From contig NZ_RFSK01000005.1 of the NCBI RefSeq assembly GCF_009923995.1, positions 1 through 64,000 of the forward strand: 64,000 bases of DNA, read 5' to 3'. Below are positions 5,290 to 64,000 of this stretch, piece by piece. Made by a program: the position numbers and the translations under genes. Source of the stretch: Janthinobacterium sp. (GTDB taxonomy: Bacteria; Pseudomonadota; Gammaproteobacteria; Burkholderiales; Burkholderiaceae_D). The notes below the pieces were generated by a model, which saw nothing but the letters and a program-made list of their open reading frames with translations, was not told the DNA's origin and searched no databases. How positions within the stretch are numbered: the stretch's first letter is position 1; each line of letters opens with the position of its first letter.

Positions 5290-5706
5290 CTACTTTCCCG
5301 GCACGCTGGCCGGCTTGAAGGCCCACCAGCGGCTGCCTGCAAAATTCCACATCAGGCCGATGCCCGTCGCCAGCACCTGGGCCAGCCAGTAATACCAGCC
5401 CAGCTGGTGCACCAGCAGCCACATCAGCCCCGTATTGATGCACCAGCCTATGCCCAGCAGGGTGAAATACTTGCTGGCCGCCTCGCCATGGCCCTTGTCG
5501 CTCTTGAACGTGAAAAAGTAATTGAGCACATAGTTGACCAGCGAGCCGAAGATATAGCCGATGCCGGAAGCGGCGGCGGCGCTGATGCCCGCCCATTCCA
5601 CGCCGCTCCACAGCACGGCATACTGCACGGCCGTGCCGGAAGCACCGACGGCGGCAAAACGGAGGAACTGGTGATGCAGGGCATGCGAAGTGGTCGATTC
5701 GGACAT
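5290..5706 (-). CDS. GtrA family membrane protein
   Basis: 138 residues with four hydrophobic helices (starting at FLRFAAVGASGTAVQY, IGYIFGSLVNYVLNYFFTF, YFTLLGIGWCINTGLMWLL, WLAQVLATGIGLMWNF), the size and topology of GtrA/DPMS-like proteins. The helix-2 NYVLNYFFTF and the terminal NFAGSRWWAFK are typical. The family is linked to moving polyprenyl-linked sugars across the inner membrane for surface polysaccharide modification. No glycosyltransferase partner is nearby, so the role is open. The gene sits just downstream of the terminator that closes the dehydrogenase operon. Confidence 0.85.
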   Translation of the reverse strand: MSESTTSHALHHQFLRFAAVGASGTAVQYAVLWSGVEWAGISAAAASGIGYIFGSLVNYVLNYFFTFKSDKGHGEAASKYFTLLGIGWCINTGLMWLLVHQLGWYYWLAQVLATGIGLMWNFAGSRWWAFKPASVPGK

Positions 5707-5748
5707 AGTGATTTTCAAATGGGCGGTAGCCGGGGCCGGGCAAGAATA

Positions 5749-5780
5749 AAAAATGGCTACGATTGCTCGTAACCATTTTT
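5749..5780 (-). terminator. Rho-independent terminator of the GMC dehydrogenase operon
   Basis: Minus-strand stem AAAAATGGTTACGA / TCGTAGCCATTTTT (one U-G pair) with a GCAA loop, continuing into a T run. It lies about 40 bases after the cytochrome c stop. Confidence 0.85.
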
Positions 5781-5820
5781 CAGCCTGCATTTTACTGCAA
5801 GTTGCGCCTGAGGTTCAGAT

Positions 5821-7293
5821 TCACGCCCGCTTTGCCGCTGCCGCGTGCCGCCGGCGCAGCCACACCAGCAGCGCGATCAGCAGCAGCGCGCCCGCCACGC
5901 CAGCGGGCAGCATGAAGGGTTGCATGCGCGCCAGCAAGGGCTTGTCGCCGCCGCTGCGCGCCTGCGCCACGTAGGCGGGCGTGACGGATACGTCCGGATT
6001 GCCATACTGCTTCAGCACGTAATTGGCGATCGAGGCGATCTGCTCATCCGTCAATGGCTGCACGTAGGAACGCTGGTCGAAACGGGGCATGAAGGCTTCG
6101 TGCTCTTCCCCTTCGATCTTGCGCTCGACGCCGAACAGGATGGCCGACACCAGGTTGGCCGGCGTGGTGCCGCCCGTCGCCGTGTTGTGGAACAGGGCCG
6201 GATAGGCCTGGCCCGTGCTGCCGGCGCCGCTGGCCGAGTGGCAGCTGGCGCAGTAGCCGGAAAACAGCACGGCGCCGCTGTTGAGCGATTGATGCTCGGT
6301 GGAACCGGCCATGCCGCGCCGTGCCGCTTCTTCGCTGGCCGCGCTGCCATGGCTGAAAGCAGCCCTGGTTTGCCCGGGCGCACGCACGGGCGGCACGGTG
6401 CGCAGGTACGCCACGATGGCGGCCACGTCGTCGTCGCGCAGGAATTGCAGGCTGTTCTGGATGGCTTCGGCCATGCCGCCGGCCGCCTGTCCCTTGCCTT
6501 CCACGTGGCCCGTCTTCAGGTAGGCGGCGAGCTCCGCATCCGTCCACGCGCCGATGCCGCTGACCTTGTCGGACGTGATGTTCGGTGCATGCCAGGAACC
6601 GAGCGATGCGCCCGCCAGGGTCTGGCTGCCGATTTCCGCCATCAGCGCGTTGCGCGGCGTATGGCAGGCGCTGCAGTGCGCCAGGCCTTCGGCAAGATAA
6701 GCGCCCCGGTTGATCTGCGCACTCTTTGCCGGGTCCGGCACGTAGCGTTTATTGTCGAGGAACAAGGTGTTCCAGCCCAGCATGGACAGGCGCACATTGA
6801 AGGGGAATGGCAGGGCCGTCTGGCGCGCCGGCTCGTCGACGGGCTTGACCGCCTGCATGAAGTAGTAATACAGGTCGCCCACGTCCGCGTCCGTCAGCCG
6901 CGCATAGCTGGTGTAGGGCATGGCCGGGTACAGATGGCTGCCGTCGGCGCGCACGCCTTCGCGCAGCGCGCGGGCAAAGTCGGCCTCGCTGTAGTGGCCG
7001 ATGCCGCCCTTTTTCGACGGCGTGATATTCGTCGCGTAGATCGTGCCCAGCGGCGAATCGATGGCGTAGCCGCCCGCGTACGGCTTGCCGCCGGCCGCCG
7101 TATGGCAAGCCATGCAGTCGGCTGCGATGGCCAGGTAGCGGCCCCGCTCCAGGCGCGCATCGGGCGTGGCGGCCGCCGGCGCGGCGGGACGGTCCGGCGT
7201 CAGGGTGACGGGTGGCGCCGAGGCTGGCACGGCAGCGATGGCGCCGCCGGCCAGCAAGGCCAGGCCGAGAGCGAAGGACAGGCGGCGCATCAT
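5821..7293 (-). CDS. Triheme cytochrome c subunit of membrane-bound GMC dehydrogenase
   Basis: 490 residues: signal peptide (RRLSFALGLALLAGGAIAAVPASA), three class-I cytochrome c domains with haem motifs CMACH, CSACH and CASCH, and a C-terminal membrane helix (LPAGVAGALLLIALLVWL) followed by a basic tail. This is the architecture of the cytochrome subunits that take electrons from FAD-dependent alcohol, gluconate or sorbitol dehydrogenases and pass them to quinone or a terminal oxidase. The start overlaps the flavoprotein stop (ATGATGA); the ATG at 7290 is equally good. Third gene of the operon, ended by the hairpin at 5749-5780. Confidence 0.92.
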   Translation of the reverse strand: MMRRLSFALGLALLAGGAIAAVPASAPPVTLTPDRPAAPAAATPDARLERGRYLAIAADCMACHTAAGGKPYAGGYAIDSPLGTIYATNITPSKKGGIGHYSEADFARALREGVRADGSHLYPAMPYTSYARLTDADVGDLYYYFMQAVKPVDEPARQTALPFPFNVRLSMLGWNTLFLDNKRYVPDPAKSAQINRGAYLAEGLAHCSACHTPRNALMAEIGSQTLAGASLGSWHAPNITSDKVSGIGAWTDAELAAYLKTGHVEGKGQAAGGMAEAIQNSLQFLRDDDVAAIVAYLRTVPPVRAPGQTRAAFSHGSAASEEAARRGMAGSTEHQSLNSGAVLFSGYCASCHSASGAGSTGQAYPALFHNTATGGTTPANLVSAILFGVERKIEGEEHEAFMPRFDQRSYVQPLTDEQIASIANYVLKQYGNPDVSVTPAYVAQARSGGDKPLLARMQPFMLPAGVAGALLLIALLVWLRRRHAAAAKRA

Positions 7294-10299: not shown

Positions 10300-10923
10300 C
10301 TAGCCCCTGCGCGCGCGACGCCGGCGCGCCACCAGGCCCATCAGACCCAGGCCGGCAGCCAGCATGGCATAGTTCGCAGGCTCGGGCACGGCGGCGGTTA
10401 CCGACACATTGTCCAGTGCCGCACCCCAGGCGCTATTCTTGCTGTAGCCCTGAAAGTACAAGGTACTGCTGGCATTGGTGGCAACAAAGCTGAAACCTTC
10501 TGTCACCCAGCCCATGTTCGACGGCGACCTGCCCGTGCTGTCGAAACTGAAGGTGTGCACGCCTGTCACGCCCGCATCCAGCAGTTTGAGGCTACCGCCG
10601 CCTTCGGCATTGCCCGCCAGGCTGAAACTGACGTTATACAGCTGTCCGACCACGGTGCCGAAGGACTGCGAAATGCGTCCGCCAGTATTGCCATTCAAAT
10701 CCAGGCTGTAGCGCCCCTCCGCATGCTGCCAGTAGCGATTGACGATGTCGACACTGCCGCTGTCAACGCTCCAGGCACCCAGATGCGCGCCGCTGTTCAG
10801 CTGCGCGAAGGGGCCGTCAAACGTGCTCGATTCGAGGCCGCCGTTGCTCAACAAGTTAGCGTGCGCCATAGGCGCGGCCAGAATCAGGGCCGCCACACCG
10901 GCCAATACCGTCAACTTACGCAT
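10300..10923 (-). CDS. PEP-CTERM sorting domain surface/exported protein
   Basis: 207 residues: a classical signal peptide (RKLTVLAGVAALILAAPMAHA), a beta-rich extracellular domain of about 150 residues beginning NLLSNGGLESSTFDG (the 'choice-of-anchor'/DUF642-like jelly-roll pattern, with LYNVSFSLAGN and LDNVSV), and a C-terminal sorting signal VPEPANYAMLAAGLGLMGLVARRRR. In the family this tripartite tail (PEP motif, helix, arginine cluster) is cut by an exosortase (EpsH-type) and the protein is exported with extracellular polysaccharide. AAGGAT lies upstream of the ATG. No exosortase is in the window. The AT-rich 260 bases upstream hold its promoter. Confidence 0.9.
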   Translation of the reverse strand: MRKLTVLAGVAALILAAPMAHANLLSNGGLESSTFDGPFAQLNSGAHLGAWSVDSGSVDIVNRYWQHAEGRYSLDLNGNTGGRISQSFGTVVGQLYNVSFSLAGNAEGGGSLKLLDAGVTGVHTFSFDSTGRSPSNMGWVTEGFSFVATNASSTLYFQGYSKNSAWGAALDNVSVTAAVPEPANYAMLAAGLGLMGLVARRRRARRG

Positions 10924-12149: not shown

Positions 12150-12225
12150 TGGCTCCCCGACCTGGACTCGAACCAGGGACCTGCGGATTAACAGTCCGTC
12201 GCTCTACCAACTGAGCTATCAGGGA
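12150..12225 (-). tRNA. tRNA-Asn (GTT), copy 2
   Basis: 76 bases, identical to the copy at 2654-2729: same cloverleaf, GTT anticodon and encoded CCA. Separate transcription unit with its own promoter and terminator. Confidence 0.97.
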
Positions 12226-12768: not shown

Positions 12769-12844
12769 TGGCTCCCCGACCTGGACTCGAACCAGGGACC
12801 TGCGGATTAACAGTCCGTCGCTCTACCAACTGAGCTATCAGGGA
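12769..12844 (-). tRNA. tRNA-Asn (GTT), copy 3
   Basis: 76 bases, identical to the other three copies: GTT anticodon and encoded CCA. Confidence 0.97.
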
Positions 12845-12979: not shown

Positions 12980-13055
12980 TGGCTCCCCGACCTGGACTCG
13001 AACCAGGGACCTGCGGATTAACAGTCCGTCGCTCTACCAACTGAGCTATCAGGGA
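12980..13055 (-). tRNA. tRNA-Asn (GTT), copy 4
   Basis: 76 bases, identical to the other copies. Lies 135 bases upstream of copy 3 on the same strand, with an independent promoter and terminator. Confidence 0.97.
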
Positions 13056-57013: not shown

Positions 57014-57904
57014 TCATATGGTGCCCGGGCGCAAAGGCACGAAATGGCAATCTTCCAGGGTTTGGCTGGTCCATTCCGTTTTCCCCACCCGGGTAATGAG
57101 TTGTAAGTGTTGCAATTTAGCACCGACTGGCGCGACCAGACGCCCGCCTGGCGTCAGCTGTTCCAGCAGGGCTTGCGGGACCTCCAGGCCGGCTGCGGCA
57201 AGGATGATCCCGTCAAAGGGCGCCGCCTGCGGCAGGCCAAGCATACCATCTCCGTACTGCAAGCGCAGATTCGACACGCGCAGCGGCCGCAGATTGGCCT
57301 TCGCCAGCTCGTGCAGGGGCCGGATGCGCTCGATCGAATACACCTCTTTCGCCACCAGCGACAGCACCGTGGCCTGGTAGCCGCAGCCGGTGCCGATTTC
57401 CAGCACGCGCTGCAGCGCCCCGCCGTTGCGCATCACCTCGATCATGCGCGCAACGATGTACGGCTGGGAAATGGTCTGGTGGTGGCCGATGGGCAGCGAA
57501 GCGTCGATATACGCCTGCGAGGCCAAAGCCTCGTCCATGAACATGTGGCGCGGCACGGCCTGCATGGCGTCGAGCACCACCTGGTCCTTCACGCCCTGCC
57601 TGGCGATGCGGGCCACCATGGCGCGCCGCACGGCATCCGACACGAGCGGGTTTTGCCGTGGCGCCGCCGCTATCGCCGGCTGCGCCCGCTCATTGGCGAT
57701 GGCCTGCGCGCGCGACGGCGCGATGGGCGGCGTGGCAGCATGGTGCGGCACCCCGCCGCGGGCCGCGTTTTGCGCCGCATTCTGCGTGGCCGTCTGCGGC
57801 GTGGCAATCCTGGACTGGGCCAGCGACTGTCCCCCGCCCTGCCTGGCGGGCTTGCCGGCCAGCGAATCGAGGGTGAGGGGGAAGGTACGCGGCTTGTCGG
57901 TCAT
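57014..57904 (-). CDS. pcm: Protein-L-isoaspartate O-methyltransferase with N-terminal extension
   Basis: 296 residues, about 80 longer than E. coli Pcm. The core (from about residue 90) has [48 protein letters not shown], the SAM-binding [16 protein letters not shown] and [18 protein letters not shown]. It methylates L-isoaspartyl residues for repair of aged proteins. The first 85 residues are Gln/Ala/Pro/Arg-rich, low complexity and probably disordered. The ATG overlaps the surE stop (57901-57904). Part of surE-pcm-nlpD-rpoS. Confidence 0.95.
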
Positions 57905-58638
57905 GCCAGGCCTTTTGCCAGTGCAGCGAGTTGGGTGGTATGCGTCAGGTCAATCTGCAGCGGGGTAATCGAGACCTGTCCTTGCGCGACCGCATGAAAA
58001 TCCGTGCCGGGGCCGCCTTCCTTGGCAGCCCCGGCGGGGCCGATCCAGAAGATTTCCCGGCCACGGGGATCGAGCGCGCGGATCACCGGCTCGGCCGAAT
58101 GGCGCTTGCCCAGGCGCGTGGCCGCCACGCCTTGCATTTGCTCGTAGGGAATCGCCGGGATGTTCACGTTCAGCAGATACGGTTTTTGCAAGGCATCGTA
58201 GCGGCGCTCGACGATCTCGCGCGCCACGCGGGCGGCCGCATCCAGGTTGGCCCAGCCGAATTCGGACTGGGAAAAGGCGATGGCGGGAATGCCGAACAGA
58301 TAGCCTTCCGTCGCGGCGGCCACGGTGCCCGAATACAGGGTGTCGTCGCCCATGTTGGGGCCGTTATTGATGCCGGACACCACCAGGTCGGGACGCTCGA
58401 TGAGCATGCCCGTCAGCGCCACGTGCACGCAGTCCGTGGGCGTGCCGTTGACAAAATAAAAGCCGTTGGCGGCCTTGTGTACGGACAGGGGCCGGTCCAG
58501 GGACAGGGAATTGGAAGCGCCCGAGCGGTTGCTGTCGGGCGCCACCACCACGATTTCGGCGATGGGCGCCAGCGCGTCGGCCAGTGCGGCAAGGCCAGGC
58601 GCAAGGTAGCCGTCGTCGTTACTGATAAGAATTCTCAT
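57901..58638 (-). CDS. surE: 5'/3'-nucleotidase SurE
   Basis: 245 residues. The metal-binding start [17 protein letters not shown], the substrate-region [19 protein letters not shown], and [27 protein letters not shown] are SurE signatures. It dephosphorylates nucleoside monophosphates and short polyphosphate, with a stationary-phase survival role. It starts the classical surE-pcm-nlpD-rpoS block. The 94 bases upstream separate it from the TPR-ATPase gene; no clear terminator was found there. Confidence 0.96.
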
Positions 58639-58732: not shown

Positions 58733-61192
58733 TCAGCGCTGCTCGATGCGCGCCTCCGACAGCGCCCCCTCCAGCGCCTGCACCTCGTCTTCCTGCAAGG
58801 CCAGCAAGGCATCGAGGTCGCCTTGCAATTTGTACATTCTTTTGAGCTGGGCCATGCCCCGCTTGCGCAGCTTGCCCGGCACGCCTGGGCGCAGCAGGCA
58901 CGATTTCAAATGCTCGGCCAGTTCGCCCGCCTGCGCATACTGCTCGCGCTCTATCATGCCTTGCAACATGCCGATCATGCTGGCCAGGGTGTCCGGTTCC
59001 GCCCCGTCGTGGCCGTTGGCGCGGCCCGCGAGTATGGTTTCCTGCAGGTGGCGCGCGCCGTCGAGCACGCTGTCGGCATGTCCCGTGACGGGCGCATTCA
59101 GGAGACGGTCACTGCCGCTGAGCACGTCGTCCTCCAGCAGGCGCGCCGCGGCGCTGTCGCCCTGCTGCAGCAGGGTGCCGGCCAGCTGTTTCTTGCTGTG
59201 CAGGGTATCGAGGTGGTCCTCGCCCAGCAGGCGCGCATGCACTTCCAGCACCTGCTCCTGCACGCTGCGCGCCGCATCGAGCTCGCCGCGCCGCAGCAGC
59301 GCCTCGGCCAGCTTGCGCTGGCTCATCAGGGTTTCCGGATGGTCGAGTCCCTGCGTGCGCTCGCGTGCCGCGACCTGGTCTTCATGCAGCTGGCGCGCGC
59401 CGGCCCAGTCACCCTGCCCGGCCATGATGTCGGCCAGCAAGTCGCGCGTGGCCAGGGTCGCCGCGTGGTCCACGCCCAGGCGCCGCCCCTGGGCCTGCAG
59501 CACGGCGTCGAGCAGGCGCCGCGCGCCGTCCAGGTCGCCATCGCGCCCCAGCGCCTGCGCCAGGGCCAGCTTGCTGCGCAAGGTGTCACCATGCTCGGCG
59601 CCGAGCAGGCGGGCGCGCGCCGCCACCACCCTGACCAGCACCTGCTGCGCCTGCGCCAGACGCCCCATGCGCAACAACGTGGCGGCGCGACTGTCCATCG
59701 CTCCCAGGGTCATCGGGTGCTCCTCGCCCAGCAGGCGTGAATAACTGTCCAGCACGTAATCCTGCAGCAGCAGCGCGGCCGCCAGCTCGCCCTGCTGTGC
59801 CAGGGTCTGCGCCAGGCACGCCCGCGCGGCCAGGGTATCGGGATGGTCGGCGCCCTGCAACCGTTCGCGCACGTCGGCCACGTCTTCCTCGAGGAAGCGG
59901 GCTTCGTCGAGCTTGCCCACCTGGCGCAGCAGGCGCGCCATGCCGCTCTTGCCGGCCAGGCTGTCGGGATGCTCCTCGCCCAGCAGGCGCACGCGGATCT
60001 CGACGCTTTGCCGAAAGGCATCGAGGGCCTGCGTGCTGCGGCCATCCTTGCGGTACAGCTCGCCCAAACGGGCCAGGTCGCGCGCCAGCGGCAGGGCCAC
60101 GGCGCGGCCCGGTTCCAGCTGCAGCGCCTGGCGCGCCTCGCCGATGGCGGCCAGCAAGGCGATTTCGCGGCTCGACTGCCAGGGGAAATAGCCGCCCGTC
60201 AGCCAGTGCAGGAAGGCTTCGAAGGTGCGCGTGAGGGAAAAGCGGTCGCCGCCCTGGTCGATGCGCACGGCCAGCTGCTCGCCGTAGGCAAAGGTTTTCG
60301 TCTGCTGCAGCTGCACTTCGTCGAAATAGCTGTCGAGGGCGATCTGCGGCAAGCCGTAGGAGGCACGCAGCAGGCGCTCGAACATGGGTTGGAAGCCGGC
60401 GATGCCCTTGTGCGCGTCGCCGCGGCGCCACTCGGCGCGCTGCGCCCCGTCGCCCATTTCTATGCGCGAGGGCAAGGGATACACGAGCAGCGGGCGCTGC
60501 TCGTCTTCGTGGCTGCGGCGGTATTCGATGGCCCGCGTGACGAGCGCGTCGACGCCTTCCAGGCTTTGCCGGTTCGGCGTGAAGACCACCACCAGCTTTT
60601 TCGGCAGCAGGGTGGTGCAGATGCCGGCGCTGTCCGTGCGCCCCGTGCGCGAATCGACCAGCACGTAGCGGAAATGCTGGGCCAGGGTATCGGCGAAGCA
60701 GCGGAACAGGGCCGGGCAGGTGTCGAACAGGTGATCCCAGCGCATCTGCGCCAGGCGCTCGCTGTAGCTGGCATCGAAGCGCCCCGCACGCATCAGGTAC
60801 AGGGGACTGCCCTGGTCGACGCGCACCACGTACTGCTGCCAGTCGATGGCGTCGAGCACGCGCTGCGCCAGGGCCGCGTCGTCCGCGCCCTCGCCCGCGC
60901 CGCGCTGGCCGGCCGTCTCCAGGCCGATGCGCTCGAGCTGCTGGCGGCAAGCCTCGAAGAATTCCAGCACGCCCGGGCGTTCCTCGTGCTGCTCGAAATA
61001 ATGGTGCAGGCCGGGCGCCTCCATGTCCCAGTCCAGCATCAGCACCGGCACGCTGGCGTTTTCGCGCCGCGCCAACAGCACGGCGATATTCGACAGCGCC
61101 ATGGTGCGGCCCGTGCCGCCCTTGTAGGAATAGAAGGTGACGACTTCGCCAGGGGCGCTCAAAGGCGGCAGGGAGAGGCGTTGGCTTTCCAT
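58733..61192 (-). CDS. Variant P-loop (KGGTGRT) ATPase fused to kinesin-light-chain-like TPRs
   Basis: 819 residues, no signal or membrane segment. The N-terminal MinD/ParA-type domain (about 15-330) has the deviant Walker A KGGTGRT (residues 24-30, arginine where Soj/MinD have lysine), LDWDMEAPGL (53-62) and a Walker-B-like YVLVDSRTGRTD (177-187). From about residue 375 there are some eight TPR units of roughly 42 residues with LLGxEHPDTL spacers (RVRLLGEEHPDSLAGKSGMARLL and so on), ending in helices. I recall that KGGVGR-variant ATPases occur beside TIR-like genes in actinomycete FxSxx peptide systems (recollection). Here it follows a TIR gene by 19 bases. Function unknown; a ligand-sensing, oligomerising regulator is likely. 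Confidence 0.88.
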   Translation of the reverse strand: MESQRLSLPPLSAPGEVVTFYSYKGGTGRTMALSNIAVLLARRENASVPVLMLDWDMEAPGLHHYFEQHEERPGVLEFFEACRQQLERIGLETAGQRGAGEGADDAALAQRVLDAIDWQQYVVRVDQGSPLYLMRAGRFDASYSERLAQMRWDHLFDTCPALFRCFADTLAQHFRYVLVDSRTGRTDSAGICTTLLPKKLVVVFTPNRQSLEGVDALVTRAIEYRRSHEDEQRPLLVYPLPSRIEMGDGAQRAEWRRGDAHKGIAGFQPMFERLLRASYGLPQIALDSYFDEVQLQQTKTFAYGEQLAVRIDQGGDRFSLTRTFEAFLHWLTGGYFPWQSSREIALLAAIGEARQALQLEPGRAVALPLARDLARLGELYRKDGRSTQALDAFRQSVEIRVRLLGEEHPDSLAGKSGMARLLRQVGKLDEARFLEEDVADVRERLQGADHPDTLAARACLAQTLAQQGELAAALLLQDYVLDSYSRLLGEEHPMTLGAMDSRAATLLRMGRLAQAQQVLVRVVAARARLLGAEHGDTLRSKLALAQALGRDGDLDGARRLLDAVLQAQGRRLGVDHAATLATRDLLADIMAGQGDWAGARQLHEDQVAARERTQGLDHPETLMSQRKLAEALLRRGELDAARSVQEQVLEVHARLLGEDHLDTLHSKKQLAGTLLQQGDSAAARLLEDDVLSGSDRLLNAPVTGHADSVLDGARHLQETILAGRANGHDGAEPDTLASMIGMLQGMIEREQYAQAGELAEHLKSCLLRPGVPGKLRKRGMAQLKRMYKLQGDLDALLALQEDEVQALEGALSEARIEQR

Positions 61193-61211
61193 AACGGTAC
61201 CTTTAACGTGA

Positions 61212-61817
61212 TTAACGTGGAAAGTGAGGAGGCGGAACGGCGCGCCATTCCGGCGGAATCCCGGGCAGCACGAAGCGGCTGCAATCGTGGCCCGGCGGCG
61301 TGGACCGCTTGAGCAGGTGGTAATGCGTGGCGATGCGCTGCACGATGCGGTCGATGTCGGGCAGGTATTGCGGATTCGATTTCAGGTCGCCGCTGGCCAG
61401 GGTGTAGCCGGAAAAGTCGACGTACAGGCCCCACTCCGTGATCTGCTGCGGCAAGCCATCGGGATGGCGCGTCATGATGATGGGAATGATCAGATGGCTG
61501 GGCAATTCATACCAGGCGCGGCGCTCCTGCTCGATCAGTTGCATGGCAGCAAATTCCCGCCGCGTGTAACCGTGCGCTTCGTATTTCGGCGTGTACAGCA
61601 CGATCATGCACACGCTCTGGCACATGGCGCGCGCCACGCGCAGGTCGATGTCGTCGCCGCCGCCCAGCTGCTCGCTGTCGATGAACAGGACTTCCTCGCG
61701 GTCCAGGTGCGGCTCCAGATAGCAGGCCAGGGCCTCGATGAGGTCATTCTTGAACTTGTTCATGAACGCATATTGGCCGTGTGCATAGCTCAAGAAACAG
61801 CCGTAGCGGATATCCAT
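61212..61817 (-). CDS. TIR-domain protein
   Basis: 201 residues, soluble. The TIR fold is indicated by YGCFLSYAHGQYAF (strand A and box 1, residues 5-18), EVLFIDSEQLGGGDDIDLRVARAMCQSVCMIVLYTPKYEAHGYTRREFAAM (BB loop through strand D, 42-92) and IIPIIMTRHPDGLPQQI. Glu88 in TRREF sits where TIR NADases carry the catalytic glutamate, so NAD+ cleavage or nucleotide-signal production is possible; this is inference. GGGGGA six bases before the ATG fixes the start. Encoded 19 bases upstream of the KGGTGRT-TPR protein and presumably cotranscribed; together they look like effector and sensor. Confidence 0.85.
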   Translation of the reverse strand: MDIRYGCFLSYAHGQYAFMNKFKNDLIEALACYLEPHLDREEVLFIDSEQLGGGDDIDLRVARAMCQSVCMIVLYTPKYEAHGYTRREFAAMQLIEQERRAWYELPSHLIIPIIMTRHPDGLPQQITEWGLYVDFSGYTLASGDLKSNPQYLPDIDRIVQRIATHYHLLKRSTPPGHDCSRFVLPGIPPEWRAVPPPHFPR

Positions 61818-62082: not shown

Positions 62083-64000
62083 TTACTGCGCCCGGGCGGG
62101 CAGGTTGCGGAAGAATTCCACCACTTCGGCGGTGTCGCGCGTACGCTTGAACGGCGGCAGGCTTTGCCAGATGCGCTTGCCATATGGCTTGGAAATGAGG
62201 CGGGGATCGCAGATCATCAGCACGCCGCGGTCGCCCTCGTCACGGATCAGGCGGCCCGCGCCCTGCTTCAGGTTGATGATGGCTTCCGGCAGCGAGTGGT
62301 GCATGAAACCGTTCTTGCCCTGCTTTTCCATCACTTCGATGCGCGCCGCCAGCACCGGGTCGTCGGGCGGCGCGAACGGCAGCTTGTCGATGATGACCAG
62401 CGACAAGGCATCGCCGCGCACGTCGACGCCTTCCCAGAAGCTCTGGCTGCCGATCAGCACGCCATTGCCGGCCGCGCGGAACTGGTCCAGCAATTCCGTG
62501 CGGCCGCGGTCGCCCTGCACGAACAGGGGGAAGTCCAGCCCCCGCTTTTTAAATTCGTCGGCAAGGCGCTCGGCGGCCCGCTTGACGGCGCGCAAGGTGG
62601 TGCACAGGAAGAAGGTGCGCCCGCCCGCCGCCTCGATGATGGGCAAGGCGCAGTCGATGACGGCATCCGTGTAGCCCAGCGAATTGGGCTGCGGCAAGTT
62701 CTGCGGCACGAACAGCAAGCCCTGCTGCCCATAGTCGAACGGGCTCGGCCACGTATGCGACGGTTCGCCCGTCAAGCCCATCTGTTCCGAAAAATGCTTG
62801 AAATCGTTCTTCACGGCCAGGGTCGCCGACGTGAAGATCCAGCTGCGCGGCGTGCCTTCGCGCTGGTTGTTGAAGATGGGCGCGATCGACAATGGCGTTT
62901 TATGCAATTGCAGGGAACTGGAAAACGCTTCCACCCAGAACACGGCCTCTTCACCGGCCGCCACCTTGGCTTTCGGGTCGAACTTCCAGCCGCTCAGCTG
63001 CTGCGCCAGCTCGACGCCGCGCACGCGGCACTGTTCCAGCGTTTCCGCCCGTTCCGCCTGGGTTTCCAGCACGGCCACCATGCCATCGAGTTCGTCCTTG
63101 AGGGTGTCGAGCGCGGGGAAGAAATCGCTGGACGGGGCGATCTGCGGCAGGGACAGGCGCACGATATCCTGCGGGAACGTCAAGCGCAGGTCGCGCGCCG
63201 CCTTTTCCACCACCGTGACGGTCTTGGCCCAGTCGATGCCGCGCGCGTGCGCCAGGCCTTCGGCCAGCACGTCGCGGCACAGTTCCAGGATCTGCGACGT
63301 CGACACGGTATTGCCAAAGAACAAAGTGGCCGTGTCGGGCAGCTGGTGCGCTTCGTCGAAGATGATGGTGTTAGCCGAGGGCAGCAATTCGGCCACGCCC
63401 GTGTCCTTCAGGGCCACGTCGGCGAAGAACAGGTGGTGGTTGACCACCACCACGTCGGCCTGCTGGGCTTCCTTGCGGGCCTTCATGACGAAGCAGTCCT
63501 GGTAATACTGGCATTCGGCGCCCATGCAGGTGTCGCGCGTGGACGTCACCAGATTCCAGATCATGGCATTTTCCGGCACCTTGGCCAGTTCCGCCTTGTC
63601 GCCGGAGCTGGTCATCTTGATGAAACGCGAGATCTCACGGAGGTGGCCCACGTCGTCGCGCGACGTCATGCGCCCGTTCTGCAAGGTGCGTTCCAGGTGG
63701 TAATGGCAGACGTAGTTCGAGCGGCCCTTGAGCAGGGCCACGGAGACGGGCGCCTGCAGCGCGGCGCGCACGGTGGGGATGTCGCGCAGAAACAGCTGAT
63801 CCTGCAAGTTCTTCGTGCCGGTGGAGACGATGGTCTTGCCGCCCCACATCAGGGCCGGCACCAGGTAGGCAAAGGTCTTGCCCGTGCCCGTGCCCGCCTC
63901 GGCGATCAGGGTGGTCTGGCTGTCGATGGCGCTGGCGATGGCTTTTGCCATCTCGGTCTGCGAACGGCGCGGCTTGTAGCTGCCCACGGCGGGACCGAGC
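62083..64000 (-). CDS. DinG/YoaA-type ATP-dependent DNA helicase, 5' end cut by window edge
   Basis: About 639 residues are visible. The frame continues to the right edge (reading LGPAVGSYKPRRSQTEMA), so the GTG at 63985-63987 is an internal valine. XPD-like superfamily 2 helicase: motif I LIAEAGTGTGKTFAYLVPAL, four iron-sulfur cysteines (YVCHYHL, DTCMGAECQYYQDC), motif II IIFDEAHQL, SATL, and motifs V/VI SQSFWEGVDVRGDALSLVIIDKLPF and QGAGRLIRD. Such helicases unwind forked or damaged DNA during replication stress; the YoaA branch is more likely than DinG given the four-cysteine cluster and length, but this is not certain. Confidence 0.93.
   Translation of the reverse strand, partial: LGPAVGSYKPRRSQTEMAKAIASAIDSQTTLIAEAGTGTGKTFAYLVPALMWGGKTIVSTGTKNLQDQLFLRDIPTVRAALQAPVSVALLKGRSNYVCHYHLERTLQNGRMTSRDDVGHLREISRFIKMTSSGDKAELAKVPENAMIWNLVTSTRDTCMGAECQYYQDCFVMKARKEAQQADVVVVNHHLFFADVALKDTGVAELLPSANTIIFDEAHQLPDTATLFFGNTVSTSQILELCRDVLAEGLAHARGIDWAKTVTVVEKAARDLRLTFPQDIVRLSLPQIAPSSDFFPALDTLKDELDGMVAVLETQAERAETLEQCRVRGVELAQQLSGWKFDPKAKVAAGEEAVFWVEAFSSSLQLHKTPLSIAPIFNNQREGTPRSWIFTSATLAVKNDFKHFSEQMGLTGEPSHTWPSPFDYGQQGLLFVPQNLPQPNSLGYTDAVIDCALPIIEAAGGRTFFLCTTLRAVKRAAERLADEFKKRGLDFPLFVQGDRGRTELLDQFRAAGNGVLIGSQSFWEGVDVRGDALSLVIIDKLPFAPPDDPVLAARIEVMEKQGKNGFMHHSLPEAIINLKQGAGRLIRDEGDRGVLMICDPRLISKPYGKRIWQSLPPFKRTRDTAEVVEFFRNLPARAQ

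Follow-up and report, generated by a model that had tools for sequence, protein, structure and literature searches.

The TIR proteins AbTir and SARM1 cleave nicotinamide adenine dinucleotide (NAD+). TIR domains, TPRs and MinD/ParA-like domains predicted to be inactive are described for ternary conflict systems and FxSxx loci in PMC7159879. The first 64,000 nucleotides of contig NZ_RFSK01000005.1 of Janthinobacterium sp. (assembly GCF_009923995.1; this whole stretch is called the window below) contain a gene pair built from domains of these kinds, namely a TIR-domain protein followed by a partner that carries a MinD/ParA-type domain with a KGGTGRT motif and an array of TPRs. No paper on a TIR/KGGVGR-TPR pair was found in the open-licence literature. 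The pair is single-copy, vertically inherited and near-core in one clade of Oxalobacteraceae, in which the TIR protein is about as constrained as SurE and the TPR part of the partner is fast-evolving. It is interpreted here, at a probability of roughly 0.45, as a two-gene TIR sensor-effector module that has been domesticated at one constant place in the chromosome.

The two predicted proteins

The TIR protein matches Pfam family TIR_2 (33.7 bits, cut-off 28), its model has a predicted local distance difference test (pLDDT) score of 83.5, and TIR structures rank top in the structure comparison, the nearest solved structures including AbTir and SARM1. The motif YTRRE is present in all 107 distinct TIR sequences collected (a deletion remnant in genome G371 was left out of this set). 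Glu88 aligns, weakly, with the WPARE glutamate of the TIR proteins of structures 4c7m and 4lqc, and provides the glutamate that characterizes TIR NADase sequences at the catalytic position. The C-terminal tail (about residues 168-201) is conserved, and the protein is 97-98% identical to its counterparts in several Janthinobacterium relatives.

The partner possesses the variant ATPase domain NF047398 (122.8 bits, cut-off 90) with its KGGxGR[TS] motif, followed by kinesin-light-chain-like repeats matching TPR_10 and TPR_12 of Pfam. In the predicted model (pLDDT 84.4), the N-terminal domain matches McdA, MinD and Soj (VIA-align). Pfam recognizes only MinD/ParA-like and TPR domains in this protein, with no NACHT or NB-ARC match at E up to 1 and no SIR2/SLOG, Macro or related effector domain. 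Among relatives, the number of TPR units ranges from about 0 to 9 per partner, and the length of complete partners from 346 to 950 residues. The pair described in an earlier sequence-only reading of this DNA is confirmed, with its coordinates and Glu88, and the two models support both folds.

That reading had also likened the partner to ATPases of FxSxx-COOH peptide loci. A distant relation does exist, as the FxsC N-terminal model matches the TIR protein (38.9 bits, cut-off 130) and the FxSxx_TPR model NF040586 matches the partner (169 bits, cut-off 300), but the best stretch of the latter match is in the TPRs, and residues 1-340 alone do not match NF040586. The C-terminal domain of FxsC (TIGR04276) has no match in the TIR protein at E up to 1, and the Thoeris-type model ThcB4 reaches 14.7 bits with this protein (cut-off 220). 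The remark that no FxSxx radical SAM gene is visible holds for the entire genome (154 contigs), in which the best FxsB score is 36.2 bits against a cut-off of 370, and weak FxsB matches occur in 11 of 14 control genomes as well.

Distribution and synteny

Of 40 genomes examined in the window's genus, 36 have the TIR gene and 35 have both genes; one genome (G024) has the TIR gene alone, and none has the partner alone. The partner search also returned 36 genomes, one of which (G037) contains TPR matches only and is hence not counted. Two further genera possess the TIR gene in 57/62 and 74/74 genomes (the latter including the G371 remnant), and family-wide 163 of 392 genomes, belonging to 5 of 44 genera, give a TIR match, which is partial in a few cases. 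At E 1e-5, 4 of 300 genomes of the order and 2 of 349 of the phylum match, every one from the same family. A scan of named genomes identified 143 relatives, 80 of which were kept, belonging to Janthinobacterium, Duganella, Rugamonas, Pseudoduganella and Massilia, with a few labelled Oxalobacteraceae or Burkholderiaceae. Among these 80 loci, the partner follows the TIR gene in 79, and 79 have yoaA. The contig includes surE in 75 loci, at a distance of about 0.25 kb or less in 74 and of 2.7 kb in one (L158). In all seven longer-gap loci examined, a quinone-oxidoreductase-like gene on the opposite strand lies between yoaA and the TIR gene; that of L103, the one scanned against family models, scores 266 of 297 bits. 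The two genes are therefore conserved together, as the sequence-only reading had expected.

Three of the four window-genus genomes lacking the TIR gene (G022, G028, G037) have an empty site at which yoaA adjoins surE, and in the fourth (G031) the contig is broken at the site. In five outgroup genera (G041, G053, G054, G057, G064), yoaA and surE lie no more than about 2 kb apart and the pair is absent, and eight more outgroup loci have surE with neither yoaA nor the pair. Distances among the proteins track those among housekeeping proteins (r 0.85 for the TIR protein and 0.79 for the N-terminal domain of the partner; 94 rows). Because the locus is fixed and empty yoaA-surE sites exist, acquisition of the pair at this site most likely took place in an ancestor of the clade and was followed by vertical inheritance, with later loss possible. 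A core pair with a known housekeeping role had been named as the outcome that would count against the sequence-only reading: the pair is indeed core, but no such role is known for it, and it is cleanly absent from some genomes.

Loss of the Walker A motif and constraint on the TIR protein

Over 97 rows, the Walker A motif KGGxGR[TS] is intact in 58 and lost in 37, the others being one locus without a partner and one undecided. The lost forms include ESGTARS (seen in Massilia), EGGPARN, DSAPVRS, RGGAGCT, QDGCGRS and RDDGSRS. On a tree of YoaA, SurE and RpoS (a quick search without a mixture model, with 97 of 99 loci, two being left out for short sequence), the state changed between intact and lost at least five times, and four changes are forced by starred, well-supported branches. 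The tree alone gives no direction; the changes are taken as losses because rhizobial relatives carry KGGVGRS and KGGTGRS. The Walker B residue Asp182 is kept in 58/58 intact rows and 26/36 lost rows. The sequence-only reading had called the partner an ATPase; across the clade it should, judging from its motifs, be read as often a pseudo-ATPase, the window copy being among those with an intact motif.

Simple pairwise ratios of nonsynonymous to synonymous substitution rates (dN/dS; pairs outside dS 0.02-1.5 were dropped, 42 of 55 being kept for the TIR gene of Duganella/Rugamonas) were obtained for close Janthinobacterium (16 loci), divergent Janthinobacterium (6), Duganella/Rugamonas (11) and Massilia (8). 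In this order, the medians are 0.053, 0.137, 0.069 and 0.101 for the TIR gene; 0.055, 0.128, 0.139 and 0.148 for surE; 0.065, 0.151, 0.186 and 0.529 for the MinD-like domain, the last value being that of Walker-less Massilia; and 0.171, 0.473, 0.420 and 0.547 for the TPR part, for which indels may inflate the ratio. At matched housekeeping divergence, the ratio of TIR change to housekeeping change is 1.57 with Walker A of the partner intact versus 1.52 with it lost; the same ratio for the MinD-like domain is 2.00 versus 3.32, nearly doubled. Since Walker A was lost repeatedly while constraint on the TIR protein did not relax, the ATP site appears not to be strictly needed for the function that maintains the TIR protein. 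The clade therefore offers a natural experiment on the control of a TIR protein, with one TIR, one syntenic locus, and partners with or without an ATP site and with 0-9 TPRs; comparison of natural variants can show whether ATP and the repeats are required.

Two natural deletions were identified. FT58W has lost the partner by deletion and retains an intact TIR gene. In G371 (L242, about 10386-10667 of the reverse complement), an in-frame deletion fuses the front half of the TIR protein to the TPRs of the partner, and this remnant lacks Glu88.

Mobility and defence context

By tblastn, the TIR protein has no match in 72,556 plasmid records (E 1e-3) or 50,697 phage records (E 1e-2); there is one weak viral-contig match of 33 residues. 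The N-terminal domain of the partner has no match in phages and 11 distant matches in plasmids. A PADLOC scan of 51 of the 53 called frames of the window (two short ones excluded; E 1e-5; families tallied without their member protein) matched 18 families and indicated no clear second defence system. Of these families, typeIV_DinG fits YoaA, MzaA fits RpoS (which NCBIfam MzaA also matches, below cut-off), LeoA/LeoBC fit a GTPase, and PDC-M28B, a candidate family, is a partial match of the partner (2.7e-14, residues 15-73); the matches to mad2, PbeA, PsyrT, mREase_IV, DpdF and Csx3 are among those without an assigned protein. No named PADLOC system matches the pair, the TIR match being negligible, in agreement with the view of the sequence-only reading that it is unlike named TIR systems. 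The enrichment in defence islands that had been envisaged was not found, the site being fixed and near-core with no clear second defence system among the 51 proteins. A mobile or defence-island reading is rejected given the fixed synteny, the prevalence and the absence of close relatives of the TIR protein from the plasmid and phage records searched, and the mobile-defence form of an immune reading is contradicted.

Proposed function and alternatives

The pairing of a conserved protein of catalytic type with a repeat-rich, rapidly changing neighbour is typical of an effector and its sensor, and favours a TIR effector with a TPR partner. The same interpretation draws on the partner following the TIR gene in 79/80 loci, the invariance of YTRRE, the surE-like dN/dS of the TIR gene, the rapid turnover of the TPRs, the equal change of the TIR protein whether Walker A is intact or lost, and the NAD+-cleaving TIRs among the nearest structures. 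It draws also on rhizobial plasmid pairs with other C-terminal modules and FxsC-type TIRs encoded after AAA/MoxR genes (both described below), on predictions in PMC7159879, and on the defence-candidate match to PDC-M28B.

The TIR protein would most likely be the effector, cleaving NAD+ or making a signal from it once assembled. The partner may keep the TIR protein silent or assemble it, its TPRs binding a trigger that could be a protein or peptide derived from a phage or from the cell. The MinD/ParA-like domain would act as a dimeric or oligomeric scaffold, with a nucleotide site that modulates the switch in certain lineages and is no longer needed in others. The pair would in this way form a complex, sense a trigger, cleave NAD+, and serve in immunity or in exit from stress; an immune-type role is possible. 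A more specific proposal, which is tentative and rather unlikely to hold in full, is that the TIR effector is gated without nucleotide: a MinD-family switch would have lost its ATP site about five times, signalling would be set by TPR-ligand binding alone, and a formerly mobile module would now be a fixed checkpoint between yoaA and surE-rpoS. Judging from the distribution, TIR modules of the immune type seem able to turn into a near-core gene pair across a whole clade.

Several observations weigh against a sensor-effector module. A near-core, vertically inherited, non-mobile pair outside any defence island is unusual for phage defence. Of 249 genomes of the phylum, 35 have the KGGVGR domain over cut-off and 6 have an FxsC-type TIR (E 1e-6 or better), but the two occur together only in the window's own genome, and at 20 other KGGVGR loci no neighbour matches the clade TIR model at E<0.1. 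The TIR model is modestly supported by Foldseek, less so than by the other structure comparison. Finally, the TIR gene of FT58W is intact without its partner, so the TIR protein may not depend on the partner.

Because of the surE-rpoS neighbourhood, the main rival is a vegetative regulator of stress or stationary phase acting with surE-pcm-nlpD-rpoS, whose TIR protein would adjust NAD+ or serve as an adaptor and would not be directed against phages; this has a minority chance of being correct. Its constant position upstream of surE (at most about 0.25 kb away in 74/80 loci), a gap to surE of 94 bases in this copy, with no terminator-like site on the coding strand between the genes, and a near-core, single-copy pair with host-like codon guanine-plus-cytosine (GC) content are all as such a regulator would have them. 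Less easily accommodated are the empty site in three genomes of the genus that retain yoaA and surE side by side, the absence of matches outside the family (E 1e-5) in the 300 order and 349 phylum genomes, a TPR part that outpaces the neighbouring genes in evolution, and distant kin in conflict-type settings.

MinD/McdA-like positioning depends on an ATP cycle. This bears on the notion of a localization system in which a non-catalytic TIR adaptor is placed in the cell by its partner, which the matches to McdA, MinD and Soj would suit but which is improbable given that Walker A is lost in 37/97 rows, that Asp182 is missing in 10/36 of the lost rows and that the glutamate of the NADase position is kept in 107/107. 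A scaffold role is common among TIRs according to PMC7075850, in keeping with such an adaptor. That the pair is in decay, as the remnant of an ancient conflict module disappearing through drift, is very improbable: the losses of Walker A and TPRs, the FT58W and G371 deletions and the failure to find the TIR gene in 4/40 genomes of the genus (a clean empty site in three, a broken contig in one) are outweighed by strong purifying selection on the TIR gene (dN/dS 0.05-0.14 in the four groups tested), by YTRRE in every distinct TIR and by a prevalence of 57/62 and 74/74 (remnant included).

Organization of the locus

The features of the locus are listed in Table 1. The TIR gene precedes the partner gene by 19 bases, and the gene order is yoaA - TIR - partner - surE - pcm - nlpD-like - rpoS. 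The pcm and rpoS genes are over their NCBIfam cut-offs (PCMT 223.6/188 bits, RpoS 470.8/394 bits); the nlpD-like gene scores 215.6 bits with the NlpD model, below the cut-off of 311. In the window frames, the codon GC of the pair resembles that of neighbouring genes, and a recent origin as foreign DNA is accordingly unsupported. Elsewhere in the window, there are four identical tRNA-Asn(GTT) genes (2654-2729, 12150-12225, 12769-12844 and 12980-13055), three of them within 1 kb.

Table 1. Features of the TIR/partner locus and its borders (positions in the window)
Feature	Position	Strand	Basis
TIR-domain protein, 201 residues	61212..61817	-	TIR_2 over cut-off, predicted fold
Glu88 codon, NADase glutamate position, YTRRE motif	61554..61556	-	motif conservation and weak alignment to the TIR proteins of 4c7m/4lqc
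Partner, 819 residues, MinD/ParA-type KGGTGRT domain and TPR array	58733..61192	-	NF047398, TPR_10/TPR_12, model
MinD/ParA-fold domain of partner, residues 14-340	60173..61153	-	
Variant Walker A KGGTGRT of partner, residues 24-30	61103..61123	-	intact in window copy
TPR array of partner, residues 365-697	59102..60100	-	
yoaA (DNA repair helicase), upstream neighbour, left border of site	62083..63987	-	NF053712, 866.5 bits, cut-off 680
surE, downstream neighbour, right border of site	57901..58638	-	NCBIfam SurE, 380.5 bits, cut-off 295

Related loci and comparison with known systems

On a plasmid of Sinorhizobium chiapasense (L213), a TIR gene (clade TIR model E 1.8e-6; FxsC_Nterm 56.9 bits) ends 1 base before the gene of a KGGVGRS ATPase with a second TIR_2 domain. 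The TIR frame (5367-5993) has roughly double the length of the 106-residue hypothetical protein annotated there (5673-5993), the TIR seemingly having been missed in annotation. On a plasmid of Rhizobium beringeri (L215), the gene of an FxsC-like TIR (clade TIR model E 0.026; FxsC_Nterm 119.3/130 bits; FxsC_Cterm 31.6/55 bits) overlaps that of a KGGTGRS ATPase ending in an FGE-sulfatase domain. Plasmids of Massilia forsythiae (L214, 5434-7854) and Rhizobium sp. CC1099 (L217, 5324-8199) encode a helix-turn-helix or MqsA-like protein and, directly after it, a KGGVGR ATPase; the module of L217 lies in a defence-like setting, with genes for SIR2, nucleoside deoxyribosyltransferase and FRG-domain proteins nearby. 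One genome of the window's genus (G032, contig C3, 30967-31560) encodes a second protein that is distantly of the KGGVGR type; its frame of 619 residues is similar in size to the L214 protein. On a plasmid of Streptomyces chartreusis (L216), there is a weak TIR match (E 0.11), and a KGGVGR partner was not found. Plasmids of Streptomyces (L262, 4608-9182) and Kitasatospora (L263, 5178-9191) encode FxsC-type TIR regions in large proteins directly after an AAA/MoxR gene, an arrangement consistent with ternary conflict systems.

Compared with Thoeris, the window pair has a partner without SIR2/SLOG, Macro or related effector domains, and compared with STAND and NLR-like systems (Avs, bNACHT, TIR-NB-ARC), a partner that is MinD/McdA-like and without NACHT or NB-ARC. 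The TIR protein shares its predicted fold and, by weak alignment, its Glu position with TIR NADases and with SPARTA TIR-APAZ, but unlike the latter has no Ago/APAZ partner. The FxSxx-COOH loci of actinomycetes (FxsC, NF040588/TIGR04276; FxSxx_TPR, NF040586) likewise combine a TIR-like protein with a TPR protein, but the window proteins score below cut-off for both and leave the C-terminal domain of FxsC unmatched. The VMAP/vWA-MoxR ternary systems described in PMC7159879 have TIR, TPR and MinD/ParA-like domains in common with the window pair, which differs in having yoaA and surE as neighbours and no adjacent MoxR or vWA gene. The rhizobial plasmid pairs (L213 and L215) resemble the window pair in that a TIR gene immediately precedes a KGGxGRS ATPase gene; in contrast, they are plasmid-borne, carry a C-terminal TIR_2 or FGE-sulfatase domain instead of TPRs, and have ATPase domains of 30-33% identity.

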